A stretch of 41,572 nucleotides of DNA from NCBI GenBank assembly GCA_005893305.1, contig VBOZ01000033.1:1-41572 (forward strand), given 5' to 3'. The notes under the pieces are model-generated. The model was not told the DNA's origin. It made no database searches and worked only from the letters and a program-made list of their open reading frames with translations. Source of the DNA: Candidatus Eisenbacteria bacterium (lineage in GTDB: Bacteria; Eisenbacteria; RBG-16-71-46; SZUA-252). Position 1 is the stretch's first letter. Each line of letters starts with the position of its first letter. Positions 3,258-19,901 of this stretch are shown one piece after another. Position numbers and translations under genes: made by a program.

Positions 3258-3354
3258 CCCCGCCTTGATGCATGTAGCGACTGAATTTGTCGCATCCACG
3301 GCGGAAGGCAGCGCGCCGGTACGCCACACGCACCTCACCGGAGGACGGACACCT

Positions 3355-5619
3355 ATGTCACGCAGCTTTCGGTTCGCACCACTCATGCTGACCGCGCTCG
3401 CCTGGGCTGCATTCACAGGCTCCGCTCGGGCCGAGGAGGGAGCACTGGCCGTGGCGCTCTCGGAGCAGGCCGCCACGCGGGCAACGGCGGTCAGCACGCC
3501 CGAGATCGCCGCTCCGGTCGGCGTGAGCGCGATCGCGGATCAGGCAATCACGATCCAGGCCGACGCCACCGACCCGAATGCGGGAGACATCCTGACCATC
3601 ACCCAGTCGGGCGCCCCCGCGAGCCTCGTTTTCTCGCACACGCCCGACGTGTCGCCCGTTTCGGCGACTCTGAGCGGGACGCTGACCGCCGCTGATGTCG
3701 GTACCTACAACATCCTCTGGGAAGTATCGGACGGGACCTTCTCCGCTTCCGCGTCGACCGCCCTGGACGTGACCGCGAATCACGATCCCACGATCGACGC
3801 CCCCGCGACCTACCTGGGCGCGGCCACGATCGATATGAGCTTCCCCGTCACGGTATCGGACCCGGATAACGACCGGGTCAACTCCATCGCCGCGACGCCG
3901 CTCCCTTCAGGGGCGACCTTCACCGTCAACGCCCTTCGGACCTCCGGCGAGTTTCACTGGGTCCCCGCCGTCGGCCAGGAAGGCGACTACAGCGTGACCT
4001 TCGCGGTGGCATCCGGATCGCCGGAGCGCACCGCCTCAGCCGTGACCGCGATCCACGTCATGACGCAGGATCATCCGCCGATCGTGAACTCGCCTGGCAC
4101 CGTGAACGCGGTCGCGGGCCTTCCCATCTCGGTCACTGCGACTGCCTCGGACCCTGACGGGGACCCGATCACGGAGTTCGTTGCAGAGGGCACGCAGAGC
4201 ACCGACCTCCCGGCCGGGGCGGTGTTCACGACCAATGCCTCCAATACCGCGGGCACGCTCGACTGGACGCCCACCCTCTCGCAGATCGGCAACGTGGGCA
4301 TCAACATCATCGCGCGCTCCGGTGTGGTTCCGACCTCCGGCCAGATCGGGCTTCGCACGGTCAAGGTAACGAGAATCGTGGTGAGGGCCGATCGGGCTCC
4401 GGTCGTCACGGCGCCGGCGACGGTGTCGGCGATGGAGGGAAGCCTGCTCACGGTCAACGTCACGGCCTCCGATCCGGACGCCCAGACACCGATCGCCTCG
4501 CTCACGGCGGCACCGCTCCCTCTGGGCGCGGCCTTCTCGTCCAATCCCGCTCATACGTCGGGGACCCTCAGCTGGACCCCGGATTTCTCGCAAGGCGGCA
4601 CGTACAACGTCGTGTTCACCGCGGCGAACGCCTTAACGGGCACCGCGACGACATCGATCGTCGTGGGGAATCAGAATCGCGCGCCGAGCGCGAATGCCGG
4701 TGGTCCTTATAACGGAACGGCAGGGGCCATGGTGAGCTTCAACGGCTCGGGCTCCTCCGACCCGGACGGCGACGTGTTGACCTACGCTTGGGGCTTCGGC
4801 GATAGCCATACCGGCAGCGGCGCGAACCCCTCGCATGCGTATGCCGCGGGCAGCACCTACAACGTGACGCTTCACGTGACGGACCCGGGCGCTCTCTTCG
4901 ACGACGCCGCCACGACGGCGACCATCGTGTCCCAAGTTAGCGCCGAGATTCTCCTTGAGAGCTTCGGGTCGACGATCGATGTGAGAAAGACGGGTAACCG
5001 GTTCACGAAGATCGGCCTGGAGGAGACGACGTTCCCCTATACGGATCTGATCCCGAGCTCGATCCGAGTCTCGACCACCTTCCCGAATTCGGGATTCGTC
5101 ACCGAATGCGCCGCGGACCCGAGGAGCTTCGTGAGCGGCGACCTGAACGCAAACGGAATCCCTGATATCGACATTCGCTTCGGGAACAAATGCCTCGCGA
5201 ACCTATTCAATAACGTTCCGGACAACACCCTCGCAACGGTCGTGATCACGGGCCAGTTCTCGCCCTCCGGCATCACGGTCCCGCTTCAGGCCCAGCGCGA
5301 CCTGACGGTCCGGGTGAAGCACCGCACCAGCCCCATCCTCGCCAGCGCTTCTCCGAATCCGTTCAACCCGGAAACCGCGATCTCCTACACGGTCATGAAT
5401 CCGGGCTCGGTCACGATCAAGGTGTACTCGGTGGATGGCCGCCTCGTCCGGACGCTGAAGCAGGGCGAGTCGTCGGGCGCCGGAACCTACGAAGTGACGT
5501 GGAACGGCACCGACGACACGGGGCACCACGTTTCCTCGGGCATCTACTTCGTGAAGTCGAGCCAAAGGGCCGGAACGGTCGAGACCTCCAACATCTTGAA
5601 GGTGACGTTGGCCAAGTAG
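3355..5619 (+). CDS. secreted Ig/cadherin-like and PKD repeat protein with C-terminal FlgD-like sorting domain
   Basis: The start is ATG 3355, preceded by GGAGGA at 3340-3345; the frame extends 30 codons upstream but lacks such a ribosome site. The 754-residue product has a signal peptide ending near A-R-A (about 26) and several about 90-residue Ig/cadherin-like repeats with D-P-D-G-D or D-P-D-N-D calcium-type motifs. Next come a PKD domain (S-S-D-P-D-G-D-V-L-T-Y-A-W-G-F-G-D), a unique segment and a C-terminal FlgD-like domain. That domain contains A-S-P-N-P-F-N-P-E-T and V-S-S-G-I-Y-F, as in type-A sorting domains. I infer a secreted or surface-exposed adhesive or scaffold protein. The array at 3203-3257 suggests induction by phosphate starvation. 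No catalytic domain is evident. Confidence 0.85.
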   Translation: MSRSFRFAPLMLTALAWAAFTGSARAEEGALAVALSEQAATRATAVSTPEIAAPVGVSAIADQAITIQADATDPNAGDILTITQSGAPASLVFSHTPDVSPVSATLSGTLTAADVGTYNILWEVSDGTFSASASTALDVTANHDPTIDAPATYLGAATIDMSFPVTVSDPDNDRVNSIAATPLPSGATFTVNALRTSGEFHWVPAVGQEGDYSVTFAVASGSPERTASAVTAIHVMTQDHPPIVNSPGTVNAVAGLPISVTATASDPDGDPITEFVAEGTQSTDLPAGAVFTTNASNTAGTLDWTPTLSQIGNVGINIIARSGVVPTSGQIGLRTVKVTRIVVRADRAPVVTAPATVSAMEGSLLTVNVTASDPDAQTPIASLTAAPLPLGAAFSSNPAHTSGTLSWTPDFSQGGTYNVVFTAANALTGTATTSIVVGNQNRAPSANAGGPYNGTAGAMVSFNGSGSSDPDGDVLTYAWGFGDSHTGSGANPSHAYAAGSTYNVTLHVTDPGALFDDAATTATIVSQVSAEILLESFGSTIDVRKTGNRFTKIGLEETTFPYTDLIPSSIRVSTTFPNSGFVTECAADPRSFVSGDLNANGIPDIDIRFGNKCLANLFNNVPDNTLATVVITGQFSPSGITVPLQAQRDLTVRVKHRTSPILASASPNPFNPETAISYTVMNPGSVTIKVYSVDGRLVRTLKQGESSGAGTYEVTWNGTDDTGHHVSSGIYFVKSSQRAGTVETSNILKVTLAK

Positions 5620-5666: not shown

Positions 5667-5721
5667 CGTAACAGGGATGAGCGCTAACGGAAACAGGTTC
5701 GTTACAGCCGCTCCGTACGCT
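5667..5721 (+). promoter_or_regulatory. predicted PhoB box array and -10 before the beta-helix/TonB-receptor operon
   Basis: CGTAACA (5667), a poor copy (5678), GGAAACA (5689) and CGTTACA (5700) sit at exact 11-bp steps. TACGCT (5716-5721) follows, 49 bp from the first 7-mer, the same distance as at the porin and phoB promoters. Predicted TSS is near 5728, giving a leader of about 70 nt before ATG 5797. Confidence 0.65.
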
Positions 5722-5796
5722 GCGCGGGTCATCTTCCGGCGGGATTCACTCAGACACGAAACTCGGCTGCGGACGATGACAACGAGGGAGACAACA

Positions 5797-7529
5797 ATGA
5801 TGCGAAGGATTCTGACGACCCTGGCTCTGATCGGGGCGACCATCGCCGTGGTGGACGGCGCCCTCGCGGCGAGCACGCCGGAGCGGATCGTCTTCGACGG
5901 GAACGTGCTCTGGAAGAATTCGCAGGACGGAACCACCCCGCTGCCGTGGGCGTCGGGCTCCGGCCCCTGCACCACTTCCGTGGCCATCACCTACACCACG
6001 ACCGATCTGGGAACGTCGTTCTTCACCCATAACCGGACCAACATCGATCCGATGCTCGTGGATCCGTTCAATCAGACCAACCCTCGCTTCGACCCAACGA
6101 TCACCAGCCCCGTCCGCTGCAAGTACCAGGGCGGCGCGGTGGTTTTGAACGTGACCTCGCTCGACCCGTTCTTCCAGCAGGTCGATTACGTCGGCGCGGT
6201 CCCAGCGCGCATCGCCGACCCGGCGTCGGATTGGACGACCGGATGGACCCTGGTCAACCGGTCCGGCGGGCTCGGACGGACGGACATCAACTATTCGAAG
6301 CCGGTGGTGACCCTGACCGGCCCCCAGACGGTGTCCGCGACGCTCTCCGCAACCAATAACTACCTGCTCCGCGGCAAGGTGGAATACGTGGCCGGCACGA
6401 CCCTCACGATCCCGGCAGGCACCTACCTCTTCGGGGAGAAGGCCACGACCGGGTATCTCACCATCGATCGCGGGGCGAAGATCTTCGTCAACGGCACGAA
6501 GACCGCTCCGGTCGTTCTTACCAGCGATCAGGATCCGACGGTCGGCGCCATGGCCCCCGGCGATAACGGCGGGCTCGTGATCCACGGGCGGGCGATCGCC
6601 AACTGCGCCGACACCGCGCACGGCGATTCGTGCGTCTCGGAGGGAGGCGCCGGGTTCTACGGCGGCGCGAACGACGACGACAACAGCGGCGCCATCAAGT
6701 ACATGCGGATCGAGTACTCGGGCAAGGTGATCAGCCCCGATAACGAGCTCAACTCGCTCACGATGAACGCCGTGGGCCGGGGGACCTCGATCGAGTACGT
6801 GCAGACGCTCGAGGGGAGCGATGACGCATTCGAGTGGTTCGGCGGTACGGTGAATGCCAGTCACTTGGTCGGGATCGGCGGAGGGGACGACGGGCTGGAT
6901 TGGCAGCTGGGCTACCGCGGTCGCGTGCAGTTTGCGGTCATACAGCAGACGCCGCTGGAACCGGACAAGGGAATCGAGGCCGACAACAGCGAATTCAATT
7001 TCGCGGCCCCGAACCGGTCGAATCCCATCTTCTCGAATATCACGCTCATCGGGACGAATCCCCCCACCCCCGGGCTGGGGAGCACGAACATCGGCGTCCA
7101 CCTCCGGCGCGGCACGGCCGGAACCATCGTGAACAGCATCATCCTCGGCTTCCGGGGACCGGGCCTGACCCGGAGACGTTCGCGAATTGCCCCGGCACGG
7201 CCCCGGCCGTGTACTGCACGCCCACGATCTCCGCCGTCGATGAGTCGCCGCTCAACAAGCGGGGGATCTACATGGCCACGAGCCCGAACCCGCTCAACGC
7301 GTCGACGCAGGTTCTGCTCGGCATGCCGGCGGATCGCCAGCACGTTTTGGCGCGGGTATTCGATGTCCGGGGTCGTCTGGTCAAGACACTCGCCGAGGGT
7401 CCGATGACCAAAGGCATCCACATGCTCACGTGGAGTCCTCCGCGCAACCTTCCGACAGGCTCGTACTACCTCCGCGTCGAGTCGGAGGGGGGCCTCCATA
7501 CGAGCAGCAAGCTGATCTTGGTGAGGTAG
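5797..7529 (+). pseudogene. frameshifted gene for a secreted beta-helix surface protein with FlgD-like C-terminal domain
   Basis: Starts at ATG 5797 after GAGGGAG (5784-5790), with signal peptide MMRRILTTLALIGATIAV to about A-L-A-A. The body, about 470 residues, contains repeated beta-strand turns, including the family-like runs G-D-N-G-G-L-V-I-H-G-R-A and E-G-S-D-D-A-F-E-W-F-G-G, suggesting a right-handed beta-helix. The first frame runs past 7155 into arginine-rich nonsense and stops at 7407. The natural continuation, P-D-P-E-T-F-A-N-C-P onward, is one base out of register and ends at TAG 7529 with a P-N-P-L-N / FlgD-like sorting domain. One missing base between about 7155 and 7168 explains this; repaired length is 577 residues. 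The TonB receptor follows 25 nt later, so I infer it is the receptor's surface partner. Real lesion or sequencing error cannot be told. Confidence 0.75.
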
Positions 7530-7554
7530 CGCGATCGCCAATCTCGCACGTAGA

Positions 7555-10464
7555 GTGTTGCGCGCATGGGAGCGGCCCCTCCGGGGGTCGCTCCTTTGGC
7601 TCGTTTTGCTCTGCGGGCTCTCGGCGGCTCTTCCCCGGGCCGCCTGGCCCCAAGCGGATTCGACGAACGGCGTCATCCTAGGGGTCGTGCTGGATCAGGA
7701 AGATCGCCAGCCGATGCCCAACGCGCGCGTGGGAATCTACCGGGTGCTCCCTGCCGACTCGGAGTGGACGATGGTGAAGGGCGCGCTTACCGGCCCGGAC
7801 GGCTCCTTCCGATTCGAGGTGCCCCCCGCGACCTATCGCGCGATTTTCAACTACCAGTCTTACTCCGTGCTCGTTCGGGATGATGTCAAAGTCGTCGCGG
7901 GCGGCACGATCGACCTGACCGTCACCCTGACGCCGAAGCCCCTTCAGATCAAAGGCGTGGACGTGAAGGGACAGGAGCGGCAGAGCTCCGAGGCGACATC
8001 CCTCGTCAAGCAGAAGAAAGCCGAATACGTCACCGACGCGATCACCTCGGAGCAGATCTCGAAGTCAACCGATTCGAACGCCGCGGAAGCGCTGCAGCGG
8101 GTCACGGGCCTCTCGGTGGTCGGAGGCCGCTACGTGTACGTCCGGGGCCTCGGAGAGAGGTATAGCTCCACGCAGGTGAACGGCGCGAGTGTCGGGACCC
8201 CGGAGCCCAACAAGAAGGTCGTACCGTTGGATGTCTTCCCCTCAGGCTCACTCGATAACATCGTCGTGCAGAAAACCTACACGCCCGATCAGGAGGGCGA
8301 GTTCGCCGGCGGCGTGATCGATTTGAACACCCGCGACCGCACGGAAGGAAAGAGCGTCTCGCAGAACATCACCATGGGCTACTCCGCGAGCGTGTTGGAT
8401 CGAAAGTTTCTGACGTACAAAGGCGGGGGCCTCGACTTCCTCGGGTTCGACGACGGGGCACGCAGCTATCCTGACTTTTTCAAGAAATTGGCCGGCGAGC
8501 GGCGGGTAGTACAACGAGGCGTCTTCGGCGGGGACGGCTTTACTCGGGAGGAAGTGCAGGCTCTGGGGAGGTCCTTCAACAAGACGTATAGCCCGGAGCG
8601 GACCGGAGGCAAGCCGAATTACAGCTACGCGGGGAGCTATGGCCGGGGCTTCAGCTTCTTAGGCAAGCAGGTCGGTGTCTTAGCGGCGCTCACGCTCAGC
8701 AACAGCTTCACGACGCTGGACCGCGACAACAACGCCTACTCCGGCACGAGCGCGAGGCTGACGCCGCTCTATCTGTACAAGGTCGCCGAGTCCAAGGCAA
8801 ACGTTCTGGGGGGCGCGATCACCAACCTCAGCCTTCGGCTGAGCGAGTCGCATTCCATCCAGTTCCGCGGCCTCTACACGCGGAGCGCCGAGGACAATGC
8901 GCGCGTGATGCAGGGCCCCAATTTCAATTTCGGCACCGATCTGGTTCGGATCTCGAGCCTCGATTACATCCAGCGGGGGCTCTTTCTGGGGGTCCTGAGC
9001 GGCACGCACGGCTTCCACGCCTTGGGCGACCTCCAGGCCGACTGGCGGGCCAGCTACTCGGAGGCGGCGCGCGGGGAGCCGGATCGACGCGAATCGATCT
9101 ATGAGTCGGATGGACGCGGTGGGGTGCAGCTCTCCGGGCGCGCGTCGATTCCGCTCACGCGAACCTTCGGCGATATGAATGAATACGACCGCGCCGCGGC
9201 CGGAAGCCTGGCGCGGTCCGTCCATCTCTGGGAGGGCCGCGACCTCAAGTTGAAGATCGGCGGCGCGTACCGGAGCAAGAATCGCCTCTCGTCGTTCCGG
9301 CGCCTCGGGTTCCGGCTCGGATCACAGGGTCGGAGCCAGCTCGATCTCTCGCTGCCCCCGGAATCCTTGATCGTGGACGAGAACATCAAACCCGGATTTT
9401 TCGAGCTTCAAGAGGAGACGCGCGAAAACGATACCTATCGGGCCTCCCAGCAGATCCGCGCCGGCTACGGCATGGCGACGATTCCGGTTCTCGCGAAGCT
9501 CGAGATTCTCGCTGGGGCCCGCGTCGAGGACTCGCGCCAATTCGTCGAGGCCAAGAGCCCGTTTGTCACCACCGTGGCCCCCGTGGACGTCGCGCTGAAG
9601 GACGAGGACCTCCTGCCCGCCCTGAACGCGACCTACCGACTGAGTGACCGGATGAACGCGCGCGGCGGGTACAGCGTGACCGTTTCGCGGCCCGAGCTGC
9701 GGGAGATGAGCCCCTTCGACATCTACGACTACGAGACCGGCTATTCCGAGATCGGGAATCCGGAGATCAAGTCCACGCGTATCCAAAACTACGACGCGCG
9801 ATGGGAGTTCTTCCCCGGCACGCGCGAGCTTCTGGCGGTGAGCGGCTTTCGGAAGGTCCTGTTCCAACCCATCGAGAACGTTGTCGAGGGCTCGAGCGGC
9901 GGCTACATCCTCTCACCCCGGAACGGACGCGACGGACGCCTCAGGGGGGTCGAGATCGAGACCCGCGTCGGCGTGAGAAGCATCTGGGACGCGCTCGACC
10001 GGGTCCTTCCGATTCCGGCCTCCTCGAGCACGCTCGACCATTGGGCCCTCAACTTCAACTACTGCCGGGTGGGGTCGAGCGTTCGCGTGCGGACCACGAC
10101 GGACGCCGCTGGAATCCCTGTCTTTCGGAAGGGGCCGCTTCAGGGCCAATCCACGTACGCGCTCAACGCCGGCATCTATTACGGGGCCTCGGCGATTCAA
10201 GGATCGATCATGTTGAGCCGGTTCGGCCAACGCCTCGCGCAGGTCGGAGCCGGCGCCTACCCGAGCAGCTTGCCCGACATCTACGAGCATCCCCCCACCA
10301 CTTTGGACATGACGATGACGAAAGGGCTCGGCTCCATGCTCACGCTCCGCCTCACCGCCGAGAACTTGCTCAACGATGCGACCGAGTTTCGACAGCTCGG
10401 GCTGGTCGTGCGTCGCTTCAACATCGGGCGCTCCTACTCACTCTCCCTGAACATCAAGGGCTAG
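7555..10464 (+). CDS. TonB-dependent outer-membrane receptor with carboxypeptidase-regulatory-like N-terminal domain
   Basis: The 969-residue protein has a signal peptide (hydrophobic about 10-27) and a carboxypeptidase-regulatory-like beta domain (about 38-125). The plug domain follows (about 145-260), with Y-V-R-G-L-G-E-R-Y and V-P-L-D-V-F-P, then a long beta-barrel ending in an aromatic-rich strand (S-Y-S-L-S-L-N-I-K-G). Such receptors import scarce ligands across the outer membrane using TonB/ExbBD energy. The start is GTG 7555, 25 nt after the beta-helix gene; an exported protein follows 15 nt after its stop, so the three look like one operon. The shared upstream PhoB-type array and the neighbouring pst genes suggest a phosphorus-containing ligand. 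This is inference; no residue identifies the substrate. Confidence 0.92.
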   Translation: MLRAWERPLRGSLLWLVLLCGLSAALPRAAWPQADSTNGVILGVVLDQEDRQPMPNARVGIYRVLPADSEWTMVKGALTGPDGSFRFEVPPATYRAIFNYQSYSVLVRDDVKVVAGGTIDLTVTLTPKPLQIKGVDVKGQERQSSEATSLVKQKKAEYVTDAITSEQISKSTDSNAAEALQRVTGLSVVGGRYVYVRGLGERYSSTQVNGASVGTPEPNKKVVPLDVFPSGSLDNIVVQKTYTPDQEGEFAGGVIDLNTRDRTEGKSVSQNITMGYSASVLDRKFLTYKGGGLDFLGFDDGARSYPDFFKKLAGERRVVQRGVFGGDGFTREEVQALGRSFNKTYSPERTGGKPNYSYAGSYGRGFSFLGKQVGVLAALTLSNSFTTLDRDNNAYSGTSARLTPLYLYKVAESKANVLGGAITNLSLRLSESHSIQFRGLYTRSAEDNARVMQGPNFNFGTDLVRISSLDYIQRGLFLGVLSGTHGFHALGDLQADWRASYSEAARGEPDRRESIYESDGRGGVQLSGRASIPLTRTFGDMNEYDRAAAGSLARSVHLWEGRDLKLKIGGAYRSKNRLSSFRRLGFRLGSQGRSQLDLSLPPESLIVDENIKPGFFELQEETRENDTYRASQQIRAGYGMATIPVLAKLEILAGARVEDSRQFVEAKSPFVTTVAPVDVALKDEDLLPALNATYRLSDRMNARGGYSVTVSRPELREMSPFDIYDYETGYSEIGNPEIKSTRIQNYDARWEFFPGTRELLAVSGFRKVLFQPIENVVEGSSGGYILSPRNGRDGRLRGVEIETRVGVRSIWDALDRVLPIPASSSTLDHWALNFNYCRVGSSVRVRTTTDAAGIPVFRKGPLQGQSTYALNAGIYYGASAIQGSIMLSRFGQRLAQVGAGAYPSSLPDIYEHPPTTLDMTMTKGLGSMLTLRLTAENLLNDATEFRQLGLVVRRFNIGRSYSLSLNIKG

Positions 10465-10479
10465 GGGCCCGGCGAGTCG

Positions 10480-11268
10480 GTGAGTCGCTCGAGGCTGGTG
10501 ACGCCCACACGCGTCGGCGTGGCCTTGGCGGTCGGGATCGCGGCGGTAGCGACCGCCTCGGCCCTGCTTGCGCCGTCGCGGCGGCCGGCCGCGACGCGGG
10601 CACCGGCCGCCAACGGGCAATCCGGAATCGACAATCCGCCGAATCCCAATCGAAACGTCAGGGCGGCATCCGCTGCCGCGCGTCAGGGCCCGATGGGGCG
10701 GAGGGTCACGGGATCCGCCTCCGGGATCGCGTTGCCTCGACTCCACTCGCCGCTCGAGCGGTCGCCTGGCTACTACCCGCCGGACGATCCCGAGTCGATG
10801 TCGGTTATCACGGGGCACCGGGACGCGCCGCTCGTCGATCTGGAGCTGACGGGTGGAGGCGCCTCCATCGATCAGCTCGGCAGGATGCTCGTCGCGGGGA
10901 TCAACGCCCGGGACGAGGCGGCGCTCCACGCGCTGGGTGTGACTCGAAAGGAATTCGAAATCATTCTATGGAGGGAATTCCCGGAGAGCAGGCCGATAAC
11001 CCACATCACGGCGGACGACGCATGGGAAATGGCGAGCATTCAGAGCCACGCCGGTGTCAGCCGCACGGCGGGAAGTTTCGGCGGTCGCAATCTCGAATTC
11101 ATACGAATCGACTGCGGGCCGCCCATCCCGTACCGCAATTTCACGCTCCACCGCCAGGTGGAGATCGCCACGAAGGACCCCTCCACGTCCCAGGAGGTGC
11201 GCCTCAACTTCGCGCCTTCGTTCGTCGAGCGCCACGGCCGATTCAAGGTGCTCACGTTCAAGGATTGA
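10480..11268 (+). CDS. exported or membrane-anchored protein of unknown function, third gene of the receptor operon
   Basis: A GTG start at 10480, 15 nt after the receptor stop, gives 262 residues. There is a hydrophobic N-terminal segment (about residues 11-31) that could be an uncleaved anchor or a signal peptide, then a low-complexity Pro/Asn/Arg linker to about residue 85. A compact C-terminal part (about 105-262) ends with beta-strands such as R-F-K-V-L-T-F-K-D. I do not recognise the family. Its position suggests a periplasmic accessory of the TonB receptor. Codon use resembles its neighbours, and no other reading frame here is better. Confidence 0.65.
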   Translation: MSRSRLVTPTRVGVALAVGIAAVATASALLAPSRRPAATRAPAANGQSGIDNPPNPNRNVRAASAAARQGPMGRRVTGSASGIALPRLHSPLERSPGYYPPDDPESMSVITGHRDAPLVDLELTGGGASIDQLGRMLVAGINARDEAALHALGVTRKEFEIILWREFPESRPITHITADDAWEMASIQSHAGVSRTAGSFGGRNLEFIRIDCGPPIPYRNFTLHRQVEIATKDPSTSQEVRLNFAPSFVERHGRFKVLTFKD

Positions 11269-11900: not shown

Positions 11901-11964
11901 TGTTACGAACGTAACAATGAAGGCATGGGTCCGTAACATTTCGTTCACACGCCACCCCTATCTT
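11901..11964 (+). promoter_or_regulatory. predicted PhoB box array, palindrome and -10 of the porin-pst operon
   Basis: CGTAACA occurs at 11910-11916 and again at 11932-11938, exactly two 11-bp steps apart; GTTCACA follows one step later (11943). TATCTT (11959-11964) lies 49 bp from the first copy. The first copy also forms a perfect inverted repeat with the preceding TGTTACG (TGTTACGAACGTAACA, 11901-11916), so a second, back-to-back site may exist. Predicted TSS is near 11971. Confidence 0.7.
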
Positions 11965-12048: not shown

Positions 12049-13152
12049 ATGAAGTTACGGAAGTGGTGGCTCGCCGGAGCCGTCGTGGTGGTCCTGGGCA
12101 GTAACGGGCTGGCCTTTGCACAGCAGGTGCCGGCTACGGAGCCGGATTTCCCGCGCGGGCGAATCAGCGGTTACCTGTTCGGGGATCTTTATTACAACGT
12201 GACCGGTGATCCCGTGCACACGTACAGCGGGTCGGGAGCCGACTTGGGCAAGGCGAACATCGACGGCGCGCCGGGCCTGATCGGAAAGGATCTGAATGGA
12301 ATGCAAATACGCCGGATTTACTTCCAGGCGGACAATGACCTCTCCATCAAGTTCTCGACACGCTTCCGGCTCGAGGCGGACAGCAAGGCGCTCACCTCCG
12401 ACGGGAAGATCGGTGTCTACGTGAAGGCGGCGTATCTCCAGGCCAAGAACGTCTACCCCGGCGGGACCTTCTTCGTCGGGATGATCCCGACCCCGATCTT
12501 CGAGACGGCGGAAGACCTCTGGGGCTACCGGTCGCTCGAGAAGACGATCGCCGATTTTCGCGGCCTCGCCAGCTCGGCCGACCTGGGAGCGGAGTTCAAG
12601 GGCAGCATCGACCCGGGGAAGAAGATCCAGTACGCCGCGATGATCGGAGACGGGACCGGCCAGAAGCCGGAGACCAACCGGTACAAGCGTGTCTACCTGG
12701 CGCTGCCCACGCGGCCGAACGATATGTTCCTTCTGGAGCCGTACGTCGACTACGAGGCCGGTCCGAACAACGAGGAGCACACTACCTACAAGGGCCTCGT
12801 GGGAGTCGATCACCGGCGCGGGACCTTGGGCGTGGAGGTCGTGGACCGGATCAACCATGTGGGCGGAGTGACCACCGAGCCGTTCGGGATCTCGGCGTAC
12901 GCGCGGGGGCACGTCCATCCCAAGCTGGGATGGGTGGCCCGCTACGACCGGTGGCAGCCGAATACCCGCGCGGCGAACCGGATCGACACAGACATGTACA
13001 TAGCGGGCCTTGACTGGGAGCCCTTCAAGGACGTCCACTTCATTCCGAACGTGGAATCCGCCCAGTATCGCGCGCGGGGCACGGCCTTGGCGCCGTCACA
13101 TCACGACCTCCAAGCGCGCCTCACCGTCTACTATCGTTGGAGCAAGCCTTGA
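12049..13152 (+). CDS. outer-membrane porin, probably phosphate-starvation induced
   Basis: ATG 12049 follows GGGAGGTGTG; the frame is open 90 codons further upstream but overlaps the promoter, so this start is preferred. The 367-residue product has a signal peptide (to about A-F-A, residue 24) and then alternating amphipathic beta-strands with tight turns, ending in V-Y-Y-R-W-S-K-P. Strands such as R-R-I-Y-F-Q-A-D and F-S-T-R-F-R-L-E-A-D resemble the OprP/OprO-like phosphate-selective porin fold. I infer that it passes phosphate or related anions into the periplasm for PstS, encoded 26 nt downstream. The PhoB-type array upstream supports this. Selectivity for phosphate cannot be proven from the sequence. 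Confidence 0.8.
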   Translation: MKLRKWWLAGAVVVVLGSNGLAFAQQVPATEPDFPRGRISGYLFGDLYYNVTGDPVHTYSGSGADLGKANIDGAPGLIGKDLNGMQIRRIYFQADNDLSIKFSTRFRLEADSKALTSDGKIGVYVKAAYLQAKNVYPGGTFFVGMIPTPIFETAEDLWGYRSLEKTIADFRGLASSADLGAEFKGSIDPGKKIQYAAMIGDGTGQKPETNRYKRVYLALPTRPNDMFLLEPYVDYEAGPNNEEHTTYKGLVGVDHRRGTLGVEVVDRINHVGGVTTEPFGISAYARGHVHPKLGWVARYDRWQPNTRAANRIDTDMYIAGLDWEPFKDVHFIPNVESAQYRARGTALAPSHHDLQARLTVYYRWSKP

Positions 13153-13178
13153 AGCTCGGAAATAACTGGAGGAACATC

Positions 13179-14261
13179 ATGAAGATGAAAACGATCCTAA
13201 ATCTGATGGGCCGCGCCGCGACGCCGGTCGCGCTTGTGGCGTCAATGGCGATGCTCAGCGCTTCGTTCGGCTGCGCCTGGGCCGACGTCAAGTTGACGGG
13301 TGCCGGGGCGACGTTCCCCTACCCGCTCTACTCGAAGTGGTTCGACATGTACAACAAGAAGACCGGAGTCGAGATCAACTATCAGTCGATCGGGAGCGGC
13401 GGCGGAATCCAGCAGGTCAAGGCCGGAACGGTCGACTTCGGCGCGAGCGACGCACCGCTGACGAACGCGCGGCTCAAGGAAATGCCGCGGAACGTGATCC
13501 ACTTCCCGACCGTGGCGGGGGCCGTGGTTCTGGCGTACAACCTTCCGTCGGTGAAGGAGCCGATCCAGCTTACGCCGGATGCGGTCACCGGGATCTACCT
13601 AGGCAAGATCACCATGTGGAACGACAAGAGGATCGTGGCCGCGAACCCGGGTGTGGCGCTCCCCGGCGCGCCGATCCTGCCCGTCCATCGCTCGGACGGG
13701 AGCGGCACGACGTACATCTTTGTTTCCTATCTCTCCGCCGTGAGCCGGGAATGGAAGGATCTGGTCGGCGCGAACACTTCCGTGAGCTGGCCCGTGGGAA
13801 TCGGCGGGAAGGGGAATGAGGGCGTCGCCGGGCTAATCCGACAAACCCCGAACTCGATCGGCTATGTCGAGCTGGCGTACGCGAAGCAGAATAACTTCAC
13901 CGTCGCACGCGTCCAGAACAGCTCCGGCAAGTTCATCGAGCCGTCGCTGGCCTCGACCACGGCGGCGGCGGCGGGCGCGGCCGCGGCGCTCGCGAAGGAT
14001 GTCCGCACCCCGATCGTCAACTCCCCGGCGCCCGACGCCTATCCGATCGCGGGGCTCACGTACCTCCTCGTTTACCAGGAGCAGAAGGACGATGCGAAGG
14101 CCAGGGCGCTGCGTGACTTCATCGCCTGGGCGAACACCGAGGGACAGGAAGTCGCGGAGACCCTCGATTACGCAAGATTGCCGGAGCCCGTGGTCCAGGT
14201 GAACGAAGCCAATCTCATGAAGCTCACGGTAAGGGGCAAGCCGATTGTCGCTTCAAAGTAG
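13179..14261 (+). CDS. pstS: periplasmic phosphate-binding protein PstS
   Basis: PstS captures inorganic phosphate in the periplasm and hands it to the PstCA channel. The start ATG 13179 is preceded by GGAGGA at 13168-13173. The 360-residue protein has a signal peptide ending near C-A-W-A (about 35). The binding motifs follow: T-G-A-G-A-T-F-P-Y-P, S-I-G-S-G-G-G, D-F-G-A-S-D-A-P-L and H-R-S-D-G-S-G-T-T, all hallmark phosphate-ligating loops. It lies 26 nt after the porin and overlaps pstC by 17 nt, so porin-pstS-pstC-pstA form one operon. The Cys before A-W-A is not in a good lipobox, so I favour a soluble protein. Confidence 0.96.
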   Translation: MKMKTILNLMGRAATPVALVASMAMLSASFGCAWADVKLTGAGATFPYPLYSKWFDMYNKKTGVEINYQSIGSGGGIQQVKAGTVDFGASDAPLTNARLKEMPRNVIHFPTVAGAVVLAYNLPSVKEPIQLTPDAVTGIYLGKITMWNDKRIVAANPGVALPGAPILPVHRSDGSGTTYIFVSYLSAVSREWKDLVGANTSVSWPVGIGGKGNEGVAGLIRQTPNSIGYVELAYAKQNNFTVARVQNSSGKFIEPSLASTTAAAAGAAAALAKDVRTPIVNSPAPDAYPIAGLTYLLVYQEQKDDAKARALRDFIAWANTEGQEVAETLDYARLPEPVVQVNEANLMKLTVRGKPIVASK

Positions 14262-15177
14262 ACGGCTCCCCGCGGACGAAATTTATCGGGGGCTTCTCCT
14301 CGCCGCCGCGACCAGCGTCTTCCTCGTCGTCGCCTTGATCGTCTTCGAGGCGGCGCGAGGGGCGGGGCTCTCGATCCGTACGTTCGGCTTTGGGTTCTTG
14401 ACCGGCACCGACTGGGATCCGGTCGCGGACCACTACGGTGCCCTGCCGTACATCTACGGCACCGTCGTGACGTCGGCGATCGCCTTGATCCTGGCGGTCC
14501 CGGTCGGAATCGGCAGTGCCGTCTTCCTGGCGGAGCTCGCCCACCGGCGCGTCGGCTCCGCCGTCTCCTTCGTCATGGAGCTTCTCGCGGCGATCCCCAG
14601 CATCGTGTACGGCATCTGGGGCTTCTTCGTGCTGGCGCCTTTCCTTCGCGGTGCGATCGAGCCGTGGCTGATCCAGCACTTCGGATTTCTCCCGCTCTTT
14701 CGAGGGGCTCCCTTCGGCATCGGAATCCTGAACGCGGGAATCATCCTGGCGATCATGATCGTCCCGACCATCATCTCGATCTCGCGGGAGGTCCTGCTCG
14801 CGACGCCGCAATCCCTCCGCGAGGCGTCCTTGGCGCTCGGCGCCACGCGCGCCGAGGCCATCGGCGTGACTTTGGGCGCGGCGCGGCCGGGCATCCTCGG
14901 GTCCGTCATCCTCGCCCTCGGGCGCGCCCTTGGCGAGACGATGGCGGTGACCATGGTGATCGGCAACACCAACCGGATCACCGGCTCGATCCTCGATCCC
15001 GGCGCCACGATGGCCAGCGTGATCGCGAACGAGTTCACCGAGGCGACCGGGACGCTCTACCTCTCCGCGCTGATCGAGATCGCCCTGGTGCTCTTCGCGG
15101 TGACCATCGTCGTGAACGCGATCGCCCGCGTACTCGTCTACTGGGCGACGGGCGGAAAGCGTGAGGCCGTCGCGTGA
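14245..15177 (+). CDS. pstC: phosphate ABC transporter permease PstC
   Basis: One of the two inner-membrane channel subunits of the Pst importer. The 310 residues show about six transmembrane segments and the binding-protein-dependent permease (EAA-like) motif E-A-S-L-A-L-G-A-T-R-A-E-A at the cytoplasmic loop that docks onto PstB, followed by A-L-G-R-A-L-G-E-T-M-A. The TTG start at 14245 lies inside the end of pstS (17-nt overlap), suggesting translational coupling. The gene ends in a GTGA overlap with pstA. Confidence 0.95.
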   Translation: MSLQSRRLPADEIYRGLLLAAATSVFLVVALIVFEAARGAGLSIRTFGFGFLTGTDWDPVADHYGALPYIYGTVVTSAIALILAVPVGIGSAVFLAELAHRRVGSAVSFVMELLAAIPSIVYGIWGFFVLAPFLRGAIEPWLIQHFGFLPLFRGAPFGIGILNAGIILAIMIVPTIISISREVLLATPQSLREASLALGATRAEAIGVTLGAARPGILGSVILALGRALGETMAVTMVIGNTNRITGSILDPGATMASVIANEFTEATGTLYLSALIEIALVLFAVTIVVNAIARVLVYWATGGKREAVA

Positions 15178-16070
15178 CGCGGGCCCGCTCCACCGCGGCC
15201 GCCGCCGCCGTCGTTCGCTCCGCCGGTGGCGGCTTCCTGCGCGTCCGGCGGAACCTCTGGGACCGGCTCGTCGTGGTGGCCTGCTACATGTCGGTCGCCC
15301 TCGTTCTTCTTCCGCTCGCCCTCATCATCTGGCACCTGCTGGCGCATGGAATCTCGGGGCTGTCGATCAAGTTCTTCACCCACATGCCCGCGCCGGTCGG
15401 CGAGGCGGGTGGGGGCATGGCGAACGCGATCGTGGGGACGCTCATCGTGGTAACGGCGGGCGCGGTCATCGCGGTTCCGCTCGGCATCGCGGCGGGCGTC
15501 TACTTGGCCGAGTTCGGCCGCAACCCCTTCGCCGGGATGGTCCGGTATACGACCGATCTCCTGAGCGGCGTTCCGTCGATCGTCGTCGGGGTCGCCGCGT
15601 ACGGCCTGGTGGTCTTGTCGATGGGGCGTTTCTCCGCCATCGCGGGCGGCGTGGCCCTCGGGATTCTCATGCTGCCGACGGTCATCCGCTCGACCGAGGA
15701 GATGGTGCGCCTCGTGCCGCAGTCGTACCGCCACGCCGCGCTCGCGCTGGGGGCGCCCCGCTGGAAAGTCACGCAGCAGGTGGTGTTGCCGGCCGCCCGC
15801 GCGGGGATCGTCACGGCCAGCATGCTCGCGGTCGCTCGGGCCGCGGGCGAGACCGCTCCGCTCCTCTTCACCGCGCTGGGCAATCGATTCTGGTCGACGA
15901 AGCTCGACCAGCCGATCGCCACGCTGCCCGTGTTCATCTACGACTACGCTCGGGCTCCCTACGACGATTGGAACAGGCAGGCGTGGACCGGCGCGCTGGT
16001 CCTCGTTCTGGTGGTGACGCTGATCTCGGGGGTGCTGCGGGTTACGGCGAGGCGGGTCCGGAGCCGGTAG
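15174..16070 (+). CDS. pstA: phosphate ABC transporter permease PstA
   Basis: Partner channel subunit of PstC. The 298-residue protein has a first transmembrane helix after a basic N-terminus, then five more, and the permease loop A-A-L-A-L-G-A-P-R-W-K-V with A-R-A-A-G-E-T-A-P-L-L-F, diagnostic of PstA. The GTG start (15174) overlaps the pstC stop by 4 nt. Its 3' end overlaps the 3' end of phoU, encoded on the other strand, by 29 nt; no terminator separates the two convergent units. Confidence 0.95.
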   Translation: MTRARSTAAAAAVVRSAGGGFLRVRRNLWDRLVVVACYMSVALVLLPLALIIWHLLAHGISGLSIKFFTHMPAPVGEAGGGMANAIVGTLIVVTAGAVIAVPLGIAAGVYLAEFGRNPFAGMVRYTTDLLSGVPSIVVGVAAYGLVVLSMGRFSAIAGGVALGILMLPTVIRSTEEMVRLVPQSYRHAALALGAPRWKVTQQVVLPAARAGIVTASMLAVARAAGETAPLLFTALGNRFWSTKLDQPIATLPVFIYDYARAPYDDWNRQAWTGALVLVLVVTLISGVLRVTARRVRSR

Positions 16071-16743
16071 CGGCGTCGATCGGGTGATCCTCGGCGTGGT
16101 GCTTGATGACCCGCGCCTCCGTCACGAAGATAGCCTCCTCCGCGATGTTCGTCGCCAGATCGGCGACCCGCTCCAGATTACGGCTCACCAAGACCAGCTC
16201 GAGAGACCGCGGCACGGTTTCCGGATCGTGCAGCATGGCGCTCACGAGCTTCGCGTGGATCTGCGCCTTCAACGTATCGATCTCCGCGTCGCGCTGGCAG
16301 ATCTGGCGCGCCAGCGTCGGGTTCCCGGAGAGCCACGCGGAAACCGAGTCGCGGAGCATCGCGATCGTGCGGTCCGCCATGCGCGAAAGCTCTTCGATCG
16401 GCTTCCCTTGCGGAAGGCCGCTCAGCTTGGTGGCGCTCTGCGCGATGTTCACGGCGTGGTCGCCGATCCGCTCGAGGCAGCTCGAGACCCGGATCGCCGC
16501 CACGAGAAACCGTAAATCGCGCGCGACCGGCTGCTGGAGACCCAGGAATCGCAGGCATTGGCTCTCGACCTCGACCTCGAGCCGGTCGATTGCCGCGTCC
16601 TCGGCGACCACTTCCTTGGCGAGATTCGGATTCCGGGTCTTGAGCGCCTCCATCGACTTCGTGAGGGCGGTCTCCGCCCGGCCCGCCATCTCGCTCAGGC
16701 GGTCGTGCAGTATTTCGAGATCGTGGTGAAAGTGCCGTTCCAT
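16042..16743 (-). CDS. phoU: phosphate signalling regulator PhoU
   Basis: PhoU couples Pst transport state to PhoR and represses the Pho response when phosphate is plentiful. The 233-residue helical protein has the two tandem three-helix PhoU repeats. The metal-binding E/D-x-x-x-D-type motifs are visible as E-R-I-G-D-H-A-V-N-I and E-R-V-A-D-L-A-T-N-I. Its ATG abuts the stop codon of pstB with no gap (TAA then ATG), so the two are translationally coupled. The tail overlaps pstA on the opposite strand. Confidence 0.95.
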   Translation of the reverse strand: MERHFHHDLEILHDRLSEMAGRAETALTKSMEALKTRNPNLAKEVVAEDAAIDRLEVEVESQCLRFLGLQQPVARDLRFLVAAIRVSSCLERIGDHAVNIAQSATKLSGLPQGKPIEELSRMADRTIAMLRDSVSAWLSGNPTLARQICQRDAEIDTLKAQIHAKLVSAMLHDPETVPRSLELVLVSRNLERVADLATNIAEEAIFVTEARVIKHHAEDHPIDAATGSGPASP

Positions 16744-17687
16744 TTATCCAAACCTTCCGGTGATGTAATCCTCTGTGAGGCGCTCGCGCGGCTGCGTGAA
16801 CAGAAGCTGCGTCGACCCCGTTTCGACGAGGCGCCCCGACATCAAGAACGCCGTGCGATCGGAGACTCGCGCCGCCTGCTGCATATTATGAGTCACGACC
16901 GCGATCGTCACACTCGATTTGATCGCGACCAGAAGCTCCTCGATCTTCGCGGTGGCCGTCGGATCGAGCGCCGAAGCGGGCTCGTCCAGGAGCAGCACCT
17001 CGGGCTCGACCGCCAAGGCTCGCGCGATGCAGAGCCGCTGCTGCTGTCCGCCCGAAAGGCTCAAGGCGGATCGATTGAGCCGATCCTTCACCTCGGACCA
17101 GAGGGCGGCCCTCGTGAGCGCGGACTCCACCAGCTCCTCCAGCCGCGCCTTCGAGCCCACGCCCAGGAGCTTGGGACCGTACGAGACGTTCTGGAAGATC
17201 GTCATCGGGAACGGATTCGCCCGCTGGAACACCATCCCCACGCGGCGACGCAGCTGCACGAGATCGGTTCCGGTCTGAAGCACGTCGTGTCCGTGAAAAC
17301 GGGCGGTGCCGGCGTACCGCACCGGCGGGAAGAGATCGTTCATCCGGTTGAAGCAGCGCAAGAGCGGCAGCCGGACGGTCCGATGATCGCGGTGATCTCG
17401 TGCTGGCGAATGTCCAGATCGATCGCGTTGAGCGTCTGGTTGGCGCCGTACCAGAGCGAAAGCCCTCGCGCCTCGAGGACCGCGCACCCGTCCTCGGTGC
17501 CGGGAGAATCCGGCTCGCCACGCCTCGCCTCCACGGCGACGCCAGGCCGGCCCGAGAGGCCGGGCCGCACGGCGTGCGATGAGGCCGGCAGGTCGGACCC
17601 TTCTAGCTCGTCGTTCACCGACTCCTCCGGCGGGAGGGTGGCGGTGTCATGGCGAGGATCGTGCCGATCGGACATCGTGTGCTCCAT
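16744..17687 (-). pseudogene. pstB: pstB, phosphate transporter ATPase, broken by a 10-bp deletion in the Walker A motif
   Basis: PstB is the ATPase of the Pst importer. The upstream frame (from ATG 17687) reads to I-I-G-P-S-G-C and then goes out of frame. The downstream frame resumes with [11 protein letters not shown] and carries Q-loop, signature L-S-G-G-Q-Q-Q-R, Walker B V-L-L-L-D-E-P and switch H (V-T-H-N-M). Comparing with the invariant G-P-S-G-C-G-K-S-T, exactly 10 nt are missing near 17366-17371 (between TGC and CGCTC). This removes the P-loop Gly-Lys-Ser-(Thr) and shifts the frame. Either the ATPase is dead or the assembly dropped 10 bases. Repaired, the protein would be 317 residues with an unusual N-terminal extension of about 70. 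A PhoB-type array precedes it. Confidence 0.85.
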
Positions 17688-17720: not shown

Positions 17721-17776
17721 AGCCTAGACCGTCCGCGCCGGGCGGGCAATAACGCCGATATTACAATCCGGTTACG
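17721..17776 (-). promoter_or_regulatory. predicted PhoB box array before pstB
   Basis: Read on the minus strand: CGTAACC (17776-17770), TGTAATA (17765-17759) and CGTTATT (17754-17748), three consecutive 11-bp steps. TAGGCT (17726-17721) lies 50 bp from the first copy, one base off the spacing at the other sites. It overlaps the phoR stop codon and would give pstB-phoU its own phosphate-responsive promoter inside the phoB-phoR-pstB-phoU run. Confidence 0.55.
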
Positions 17777-19151
17777 AGCGGAGATGGGGGCCATCGGGCG
17801 AAATCTCAAACCAGAACGAGCTGCCCTCTCCCACCTTACTGTCGACGCCCACGCGCCCCCCGTGCAGCTGAATCGCGTGTTTCACGATCGCGAGCCCCAG
17901 GCCCGTCCCCCCCAGGGCCCGCGACCGCCCTTGGTCGACCCGGTAAAAGCGTTCGAAAAGCCGCGGCAGATGCTCGGGCTCGATGCCCCTGCCGGTGTCG
18001 GAGACGCTCACCCGAATCGCCGACGAGGTCCGTTCCACGCGGAGCGTGACCACGCCCGTGTCGGTGTACTTGACCGCATTGTCGAGGAGGTTCCGAAGCG
18101 CGACCTCGATCCGCTTGCGATCGACCCGGGCGCGGATCCCGGGGCGGGCCTCCACCTCCAGCCTGAGCCCACGCCGTGCCGCCAAATCCTCGAACGTCGA
18201 CGCGATGTCCCGGACGATCGCCGAGGCATCCCAGTCCTTGAGGTCGAGCGGCGCGTCGGGGCGCTCGAGGTCGGCCAGCTGGAGGAGATCCTCCACCAAG
18301 GCCTCGAGCCGCTCGGCTTGGGTGCGGATCGTCTCGACGAACCGCGCCCGATTCGGCTCGTCCTCGAGCCCGCCCGAGAGCAGCGTCTCGGCGTAACCGC
18401 GAATCGAGGTCAGCGGCGTTTTCAGCTCGTGGGAGACGTTGGCCACGAACTCCCTTCTTAGATTCGCCATCAGCCGTTCCGGTCTCAAGTCCTCGATCGA
18501 GAGAAGCCACGCCCGCGGACCTCCCTCTCCCCGGACCGGCACGACGGAGACCTCGTACTCGCTCCGTTCTTCGACGTAAATCGAGATCTCCCGGATGACC
18601 CCTGAGCCCGACCGGATCGCTTCCTCGGCCACCTCCTCCAGCACGGGCTGCCGCGCGGCGGCGAGGCGGGGCCCCCCCGTGGGACGCTCGATTCCGACGA
18701 TCGACCAGAATCGAGGGTTCGCGTGATGGATCGTCAGATCGCTCGAAAGGAGCGCGATCCCCTGCCTCAAATTGCCCAGCACCGCTTCACCCGCGTCCCG
18801 CTCGCGCCTGAGCTCTTCGAGCTTCTCCTCGAAGCGCGCCGCGACCGCGTTCAGGCTTCGGCCCAAGGCGGCCAGCTCGTCGTGCGAATCGACGGGGACG
18901 CGCACGCCGGGTTCGCCTAGTCCCAGGGCATCCGCGGAGGCGCGGAGCGACTCGAGCCGATGATCCACTTGTCTGAGGAGGAGGTAGGAGCCAAAGGCGA
19001 CCGGGACTAGAAGCACTGCGAGGACGACCCACATGTAGATGTTGAATTCCGCCGAGCGGTTCTCCAGAACGAAGCCGGCGATGAGGAGGGAGCTGGCGAC
19101 GAGGACCAAGAAGGAGCCGAAGAGCCGGCCGGAAAACGAGGTCACGGCCAC
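17772..19151 (-). CDS. phoR: phosphate-regulon sensor histidine kinase PhoR
   Basis: The 459-residue inner-membrane kinase has two transmembrane helices (about 11-29 and 38-59) with only a very short loop between them, as in PhoR kinases that read Pst/PhoU rather than a ligand. Then come a HAMP-like linker (about 60-115), a PAS-like domain (about 120-220) and the catalytic core: phospho-acceptor His241 in V-S-H-E-L-K-T-P-L, N-box Asn358, G1 D-T-G-R-G-I (385-390) and G2 G-G-T-G-L-G-L (414-420). The GTG start at 19151 lies 51 nt after the phoB stop, so phoB-phoR form an operon. phoU/pstB linkage makes the PhoR assignment secure among similar kinases. Confidence 0.93.
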   Translation of the reverse strand: MAVTSFSGRLFGSFLVLVASSLLIAGFVLENRSAEFNIYMWVVLAVLLVPVAFGSYLLLRQVDHRLESLRASADALGLGEPGVRVPVDSHDELAALGRSLNAVAARFEEKLEELRRERDAGEAVLGNLRQGIALLSSDLTIHHANPRFWSIVGIERPTGGPRLAAARQPVLEEVAEEAIRSGSGVIREISIYVEERSEYEVSVVPVRGEGGPRAWLLSIEDLRPERLMANLRREFVANVSHELKTPLTSIRGYAETLLSGGLEDEPNRARFVETIRTQAERLEALVEDLLQLADLERPDAPLDLKDWDASAIVRDIASTFEDLAARRGLRLEVEARPGIRARVDRKRIEVALRNLLDNAVKYTDTGVVTLRVERTSSAIRVSVSDTGRGIEPEHLPRLFERFYRVDQGRSRALGGTGLGLAIVKHAIQLHGGRVGVDSKVGEGSSFWFEISPDGPHLRS

Positions 19152-19202: not shown

Positions 19203-19901
19203 TCAGGCCTTGGGAATCTCCGCGGAGTAGCCGACGCCGGTCACGGTGCGGATCAGCTTGGAGTCCTTCCCCAGCTTGGAGCGGAGGCGGCGGACGTGGA
19301 CGTCGACGGTCCGCGTCTCGCCGAAATAGCCTAGCCCCCAGACTTTGTCGAGAAGCTGCTCCCTCGAGAAGACGCGCCCGGGGCGCTGAAGCAGGTACTC
19401 GAGCAGCCGGAACTCAGTCGGCGTGAGGTGAATCTCACGCGAGTGGAGCAGGACCTGGTGCCGCTCCCGGTCGAGCTGGAACGGCCCGATCTTGGTGGGC
19501 GCCGCGGCCTCGTCTCCGCGCGTGCGGCGAAGGATCGCCCCGACGCGGGCGACCAACTCTTTGGGTGAGAACGGTTTTGTCAGGTAATCGTCGGCGCCGC
19601 GCTCGAATCCCACGAGCTTGTCCATCTCGGTGCCCCGTGCCGTGAGGATGAGCACGGGGAGCGAGCGCGTGCGGGGTTCGGACCGGATCGCCTGGAGCAC
19701 CTCGAGGCCGCTCAGCTTGGGCAGGAGGAGGTCCAGGATCAGGAGGTCGGGCGGGGACTTGAAGACCCGGTCCAGGCCCGATTCCCCCTCGCGCTCGGAG
19801 AGGACGCGGTAGCCCTCCCGGGCAAGGTTGTAGGTCACGAGCTCGCAGATCTCGGGCTCGTCGTCCACGACCAGGATGGTGGAGCGCGCGGTCTTGGTCA
19901 C
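19203..19901 (-). CDS. phoB: phosphate-regulon response regulator PhoB
   Basis: OmpR/PhoB-family activator that binds tandem 11-bp repeats upstream of phosphate-starvation genes. With the GTG at 19901 the protein has 232 residues: receiver domain with D13/D14, phospho-acceptor Asp57 (L-I-L-D-L-L-L-P), Thr87 and Lys109 (L-T-K-P-F). A winged-helix domain follows, with the recognition-helix region E-T-R-T-V-D-V-H-V-R-R-L-R-S-K-L. The frame is open upstream (GTG 19958 is an alternative), but the predicted transcription start falls at about 19958, favouring 19901. An array at 20019-19980 suggests autoregulation. Confidence 0.94.
   Translation of the reverse strand: MTKTARSTILVVDDEPEICELVTYNLAREGYRVLSEREGESGLDRVFKSPPDLLILDLLLPKLSGLEVLQAIRSEPRTRSLPVLILTARGTEMDKLVGFERGADDYLTKPFSPKELVARVGAILRRTRGDEAAAPTKIGPFQLDRERHQVLLHSREIHLTPTEFRLLEYLLQRPGRVFSREQLLDKVWGLGYFGETRTVDVHVRRLRSKLGKDSKLIRTVTGVGYSAEIPKA

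Follow-up and report, generated by a model that had tools for sequence, protein, structure and literature searches.

By what means might phosphorus compounds that exceed the size limit of porins enter through the outer membrane? The question is raised by a locus of Candidatus Eisenbacteria, a poorly known group, in which a TonB-dependent receptor gene is flanked by genes for two exported proteins (g1 and the small g3), all three upstream of the pst genes. The locus lies within the first 41.6 kb (41,572 nucleotides) of a 153-kb contig belonging to a 2.75-Mb draft genome, and that whole stretch is what is meant here by the window. Is the cluster part of the phosphate regulon, and if so, what might it do there?

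Layout of the locus

The gene order is pdxJ, an exported protein with PKD domain and FlgD-like tail, g1, the receptor, g3, porin, pstS, pstC, and pstA (Table 1). Convergent to porin-pstSCA are phoU and pstB, followed by genes encoding a PhoR-like kinase and a PhoB-like regulator; the open reading frame of the latter extends further upstream, its true start lying near 19900. A homologue of the porin precedes pstS in many genomes of the class. The splitting of the pst genes is shared by the host's family, with porin-pstSCA on one strand and phoU, with or without pstB, convergent on the other (12049-17487 in the window; also loci L073-L076). The PKD/Ig protein at 3265-5619 carries a FlgD/T9SS-type tail and lacks its own Pho box; it too stands between pdxJ and the porin. 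No phosphatase gene adjoins the cluster, and a search of Rfam found no RNA element.

The original prediction had the three genes of the cluster separated by 25 and 15 nt, which is correct (7529/7555 and 10464/10480). It also had them directly upstream of porin-pstSCA. Upstream they are, but not directly, as 780 nt intervene and the porin is preceded by a Pho box of its own. Nor is g1 a single open frame. In the assembly it is frameshifted near 7165-7180, so that the core is read from 5797 and the last 120 or so codons, up to 7529, are in a different frame, while in its relatives core and tail share one frame. A second break falls within the Walker A motif of pstB (17364-17381, minus strand), where GPSG and LLRCFN are in separate frames. 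That two genes 10 kb apart are both broken in a draft genome suggests small assembly errors, and the frameshift in pstB is probably one of them.

Table 1. Positions of genes and regulatory elements within the window
Feature	Position	Strand	Remarks
Pho box of g1	5667..5706	+	CGTAACA-N15-GGAAACA-N4-CGTTACA; three units in 11-bp register (0, 22, 33)
Putative -10 element TACGCT	5716..5721	+	9 nt past the g1 Pho box; inferred
g1, ElpS-like exported protein, predicted right-handed beta-helix, with C-terminal T9SS-type sorting domain	5797..7529	+	Signal peptide, family alignments
TonB-dependent receptor	7555..10464	+	CarboxypepD_reg, Plug, and beta-barrel (Pfam, NCBIfam)
g3, exported protein, putative C-terminal NTF2-like domain	10480..11268	+	Predicted fold
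Pho box of porin-pst operon	11910..11949	+	CGTAACA-N15-CGTAACA-N4-GTTCACA
Porin-like protein	12049..13152	+	First gene of pst operon; conserved in class; no Pfam match
pstS	13179..14261	+	TIGR00975, 386 bits
pstC	14245..15177	+	TIGR02138, 303.6 bits
pstA	15174..16070	+	BPD_transp_1; downstream of pstC
phoU	16042..16743	-	PF01895, 171 bits
pstB	16744..17487	-	ABC_tran; frameshift at Walker A motif in assembly
PhoR-like sensor kinase	17772..19151	-	HAMP, HisKA, HATPase_c
PhoB-like response regulator	19203..19900	-	Response_reg and Trans_reg_C in last ~220 residues of the reading frame

Control by phosphate

If the cluster is under phosphate control, then the sequence preceding it should resemble what precedes the pst genes of related bacteria. 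In family members without g1, the porin-pst promoter repeats CGTNACA at 0, 22, and 33 bp and has a further, weaker unit at 11; a hexamer resembling a -10 element lies some 9 to 10 nt past the box. The array in front of g1 has its units at 5667 (CGTAACA), 5689 (GGAAACA), and 5700 (CGTTACA). Its distance to the putative -10 element is also the distance found before TATCTT in the window's porin promoter and before TACTCT in L076.

A consensus drawn from the pst promoters of L074-L076 alone (CGTAACA-N15-CGTAACA-N4-CGTTACA) was searched for with up to 3 mismatches. In the entire 2.75-Mb genome it matches just two sites, one beginning at 5667, before g1, and the other at 11910, before porin-pst. The box of g1 departs from the consensus of its relatives by 2 mismatches. 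Chance would provide 0.0004 matches in the genome at 2 mismatches or fewer and 0.009 at 3 or fewer, and the reversed consensus, used as a control, has none in the same genome. A scan of 47 genomes of the class produced six matches, each of them before porin-pst or before g1. Regions upstream of g1 in 13 relatives likewise outscore stretches taken at random from those loci when a heptamer matrix built from pst and pho promoters is applied. The enrichment concerns the 11-bp repeat, and its combined p of about 8e-7 is indicative only, since the random control windows took in coding sequence, the relatives are not independent, and part of the motif set was chosen by eye.

The array that had been called PhoB-type is thus a genuine Pho box, and it shares its type with the box that precedes porin-pst in the same genome. 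As judged from the sequence, control of the g1 cluster by the Pho system is close to certain.

The three proteins

The N-terminus of g1, MMRRILTTLALIGATIAVVDGALAAST, contains no cysteine and so no lipobox, and the signal region of its relatives in the class ends in a sequence like ASAQ. The N-terminal part is poorly conserved. In the AlphaFold2 model the core (residues 160-455) is mostly beta, with pLDDT mostly 80-98, and nearly all of the top Foldseek matches are beta-helix proteins. These matches are weak (best E 5e-3, low TM-scores), which is partly due to the disorder of the first 160 residues as modeled. Pfam finds nothing in g1, neither a SusD family nor one of glycosidases or lyases, and sequence searches of solved structures with g1, the receptor, and g3 gave nothing useful. 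Two alignments agree in showing little or no variation at D342, D343, E346, D364, D365, D368, E394, and D396. A step of 22 residues amounts to one coil of a beta-helix, so these acids are probably stacked on one face of it.

The tail of g1, conserved in relatives, matches the type A T9SS sorting domain TIGR04183 (30.9 bits; cut-off 23), and the genome encodes the T9SS translocon protein SprA (TIGR04189, 539 bits, cut-off 200). In another genome (G029; L025, 724-4170) a peptidase of the C25 family, the family of the gingipains and of the T9SS sortase PorU, adjoins g1. Several Bacteroidota have tandem arrangements of at least two g1-like domains next to a receptor (L119, L126, L127, L133, L163, L166, and L172, the last having four).

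The receptor resembles TIGR01782, scoring under that model's cut-off. A plasmid of Pseudoalteromonas (L179) carries a DUF3450-ExbB-ExbB-ExbD-TonB cluster followed by a g1 homologue and a receptor, which suggests an energy system dedicated to the pair. As for g3, neither Pfam nor NCBIfam recognizes it. Residues 120-262 are modeled with pLDDT of about 83-95, and its weak fold matches (best E 0.02) repeatedly include NTF2-like, epoxide-hydrolase, and isomerase folds. It is present in 11 relatives within the class and, along with the g1-receptor pair, in Acidobacteria.

The pair in other genomes

The g1-receptor pair is the constant; linkage to pho genes is frequent but not the rule. Homologues of g1 were found in 20 of 99 related genomes, using a narrower alignment of g1, as that of the full family is too diverse. 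Within the class, g1, receptor, and g3 follow one another on one strand in all members other than G016, wherever the contig permits. In half of the 14 carriers of the class, pho genes adjoin the cluster or share its contig: the window's genome, G041, G018, G023, G026, G001 (with phoR alone), and G025 (with pst at a distance of 17 kb). In G055, which belongs to another phylum-level group, the order is phoB-phoR-phoB-receptor-g1-pstSCAB-phoU. The 14 carrier genomes together encode about 146 receptors, a count that takes in a few fragments, and the four that lie within 25 kb of pstC are all partners of g1 (Fisher p 3e-5, which ignores relatedness).

Further afield, the pairing reaches Bacteroidota, Acidobacteria, and Proteobacteria. 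Of 80 named relatives, most of them Bacteroidota, 74 have a receptor no more than 2.5 kb from g1, and 12 have phoRB, phoB, or pst beside g1, where a rough chance expectation for pho genes in a 20-kb stretch is about 1%. Linkage thus recurs in the class and beyond it, yet the original prediction named a pair lying mainly away from pho genes as grounds for refutation, and this is partly the case: across the superfamily, 68 of the 80 sampled are unlinked. This majority does not exclude Pho control, since two of three paralogues in Flavobacterium are unlinked to phoBR and still strongly induced by phosphate depletion (PMC8115612). Pfam families around unlinked pairs in Bacteroidota form no recurring pattern, a few calcineurin-like phosphoesterases aside, and the neighbors of the closest unlinked clusters are unremarkable, apart from a C25 peptidase by one of them. 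Taken with the Pho-box test, the recurrence of pst and phoRB beside the pair in other genomes lends strong support to the placement of the cluster in the phosphate regulon.

Similar systems

A receptor of this type had been thought apparently uncharacterized. It is not, for related pairs have been published in both Caulobacter (PMC2996285) and Flavobacterium (PMC8115612). The locus in Caulobacter crescentus is cc0170 (elpS)-cc0171-gspC-N (Le Blastier et al. 2010, PMC2996285). ElpS is a surface-exposed protein, induced by phosphate starvation, that stimulates alkaline phosphatase, and in the proposal of its authors it is functionally linked to CC_0171, which might take part in phosphate uptake (PMC2996285). 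They reported cc0171 to be expressed in rich and poor medium alike and internal phosphate to be unchanged (PMC2996285). A Sphingomonas plasmid has a g1 homologue, then a homologous receptor, then gsp genes, i.e. the published order of Caulobacter. Compared with the Sphingomonas gene that occupies the place of elpS, a stand-in for ElpS itself, g1 shares 35% identity over 308 columns (E 6e-33), and the adjacent receptor is 28% identical to that of the window over 901 columns. ElpS, however, is a lipoprotein encoded beside type II secretion genes, while g1 has no lipobox, ends in a T9SS-type tail, stands beside pst, and has an extra partner in g3. No T2SS genes are found in the annotated part of the window; they are present in the loci of Sphingomonas and Indioceanicola.

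In Flavobacterium johnsoniae, PUSIV consists of phoR-phoB-Fjoh_0545 (receptor)-Fjoh_0546 (FII lipoprotein with pectin-lyase fold; Lidbury et al. 2021, PMC8115612). Fjoh_0545 and Fjoh_0546 are among the genes most strongly induced by phosphate depletion (transcript FC 8.0 and 9.9 in Table 1 of that work, apparently log2), and Fjoh_0546 is related to the Caulobacter protein (PMC8115612). PUSIV resembles the window in having a phoBR-linked receptor and a beta-helix surface protein, a match by layout and not by the sequence of Fjoh_0546. The layout itself, phoR, phoB, receptor, g1 homologue, recurs in a locus of Flavobacteriales (L136). PUSIV differs in that its surface protein is described as a lipoprotein and in having neither g3 nor adjacent pst genes.

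The SusCD and PusCD systems also join a TonB-dependent transporter to a dedicated surface partner, PusCD being phosphate-regulated as well, but their partner is a helical lipoprotein of the SusD type and not a predicted beta-helix protein like g1. PhoB is known to control several TonB receptors in Caulobacter (PMC11208175). The cluster in the window is a variant of the kind described for ElpS and its TonB receptor.

Origin of the cluster

Has the cluster always been part of this pst locus? A Pho box lies between pdxJ and the porin, with no g1, in G003, G004, G006, and G007, and pdxJ adjoins the porin in G005 also. With pdxJ directly next to the porin in relatives, the 8 kb or so that separate them in the window (the PKD protein and the cluster) amount to an insertion. 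An ancestral cluster, considered and rejected on these grounds, is opposed also by the congener G001, whose cluster is of another clade and located elsewhere in the genome. In the trees of receptor and g1 alike, the window groups with families f9/f7/f4, apart from the f8-type cluster of G001, from which it follows that linkage to pho genes arose in both clades. Base composition bears no mark of recent insertion.

A proposed role for the cluster

I propose that g1, the receptor, and g3 probably constitute a PhoB-controlled module of the ElpS/TonB-receptor kind for acquiring phosphorus at the outer membrane, inserted into the pst locus. Scavenging of phosphorus there is the most likely reading of what the cluster does. 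According to this model, depletion of phosphate would lead PhoR and PhoB to activate the promoters of g1 and porin-pst by way of the same type of Pho box. Intact g1 would be exported and carried to the cell surface by the T9SS, as its tail and SprA indicate. There the beta-helix, with its acidic ladder (D342-D343, D364-D365-D368, E394-D396), may capture or process a phosphorus-bearing ligand and pass it to the receptor, which would use TonB energy to bring it across the outer membrane. The exported g3 would serve as an accessory, probably periplasmic or lipid-associated, and phosphate freed in the periplasm would be taken up by PstSCAB. Counting against the model are the lack of a phosphatase gene beside the cluster, the majority of Bacteroidota pairs that lie away from pho genes, the reported expression of cc0171 in both media with internal phosphate unchanged, and the frameshift in g1.

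An alternative view is that traffic runs in the other direction: the receptor might help export or release the beta-helix protein, as Oar does for PopC in Myxococcus, leaving secreted g1 to serve a phosphorus function by, for example, activating or anchoring phosphatases. The TonB-dependent transporter Oar offers a precedent (PMC6434023), and a need for the receptor in export would suit both the nearly obligatory pairing across phyla and the circumstance that alphaproteobacterial pairs adjoin T2SS genes while ElpS reportedly does not need the T2SS to cross the outer membrane (PMC2996285). However, the T9SS-type tail of g1 and the SprA of the genome provide another route of export, and deletion of cc0171 left production of ElpS going, a result that concerns production, surface display being a separate matter (PMC2996285). 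I consider this view unlikely.

Could g1 instead be mainly an enzyme, a surface hydrolase of glycans or phosphodiesters built on a polygalacturonase-like scaffold, with the receptor importing its product, e.g. oligosaccharides of phosphorylated glycans? The weak fold matches of g1 to polygalacturonase, pectate lyase, and alginate epimerase point that way, as do its invariant stacked carboxylates, and Lidbury et al. suggest binding or hydrolysis of plant glycans by the relatives in Flavobacterium (PMC8115612). It is, all the same, quite unlikely, given that none of the Foldseek matches has E below 0.001, that g1 belongs to no glycosidase or lyase family of Pfam, and that glycoside hydrolases are not enriched among 116 neighboring proteins. 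A further idea is that the receptor serves some other nutrient (metal, vitamin, or polysaccharide) and fell under Pho control by the accident of insertion near pst. Most members of the superfamily are indeed unlinked to pho genes and the window's cluster looks inserted, but it has its own Pho box and does not depend on that of pst. Linkage, moreover, recurs outside the class as well as in two separate clades within it, and in two phyla a phosphate response is known for systems that are homologous or of matching layout, all of which makes the idea very improbable.

Significance

Pairs of receptor and surface protein induced by phosphate hunger were known from two model organisms, and the window adds a third phylum. 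Here the pair is tied to pst by an independent Pho box, unique genome-wide, and its insertion into a pho locus was a separate event. What sets the window's pair apart from the known ones is this linkage of independent standing in another phylum, together with its T9SS tail, a third conserved component in g3, and an acidic motif that can be mutated.

A broader view may be entertained tentatively, that the receptor/beta-helix pairs of Eisenbacteria, Bacteroidota, Acidobacteria, and Proteobacteria serve in general as an outer-membrane gate through which a macromolecule bearing phosphorus passes, the surface protein arriving by whatever secretion route the lineage possesses (T9SS tail here, lipoprotein or T2SS elsewhere) and g3 marking a new, three-part form. 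The prediction that follows from the finding is that the pair would be a system for acquiring phosphorus wherever it is found, including the many copies in Bacteroidota that lie away from pho genes.
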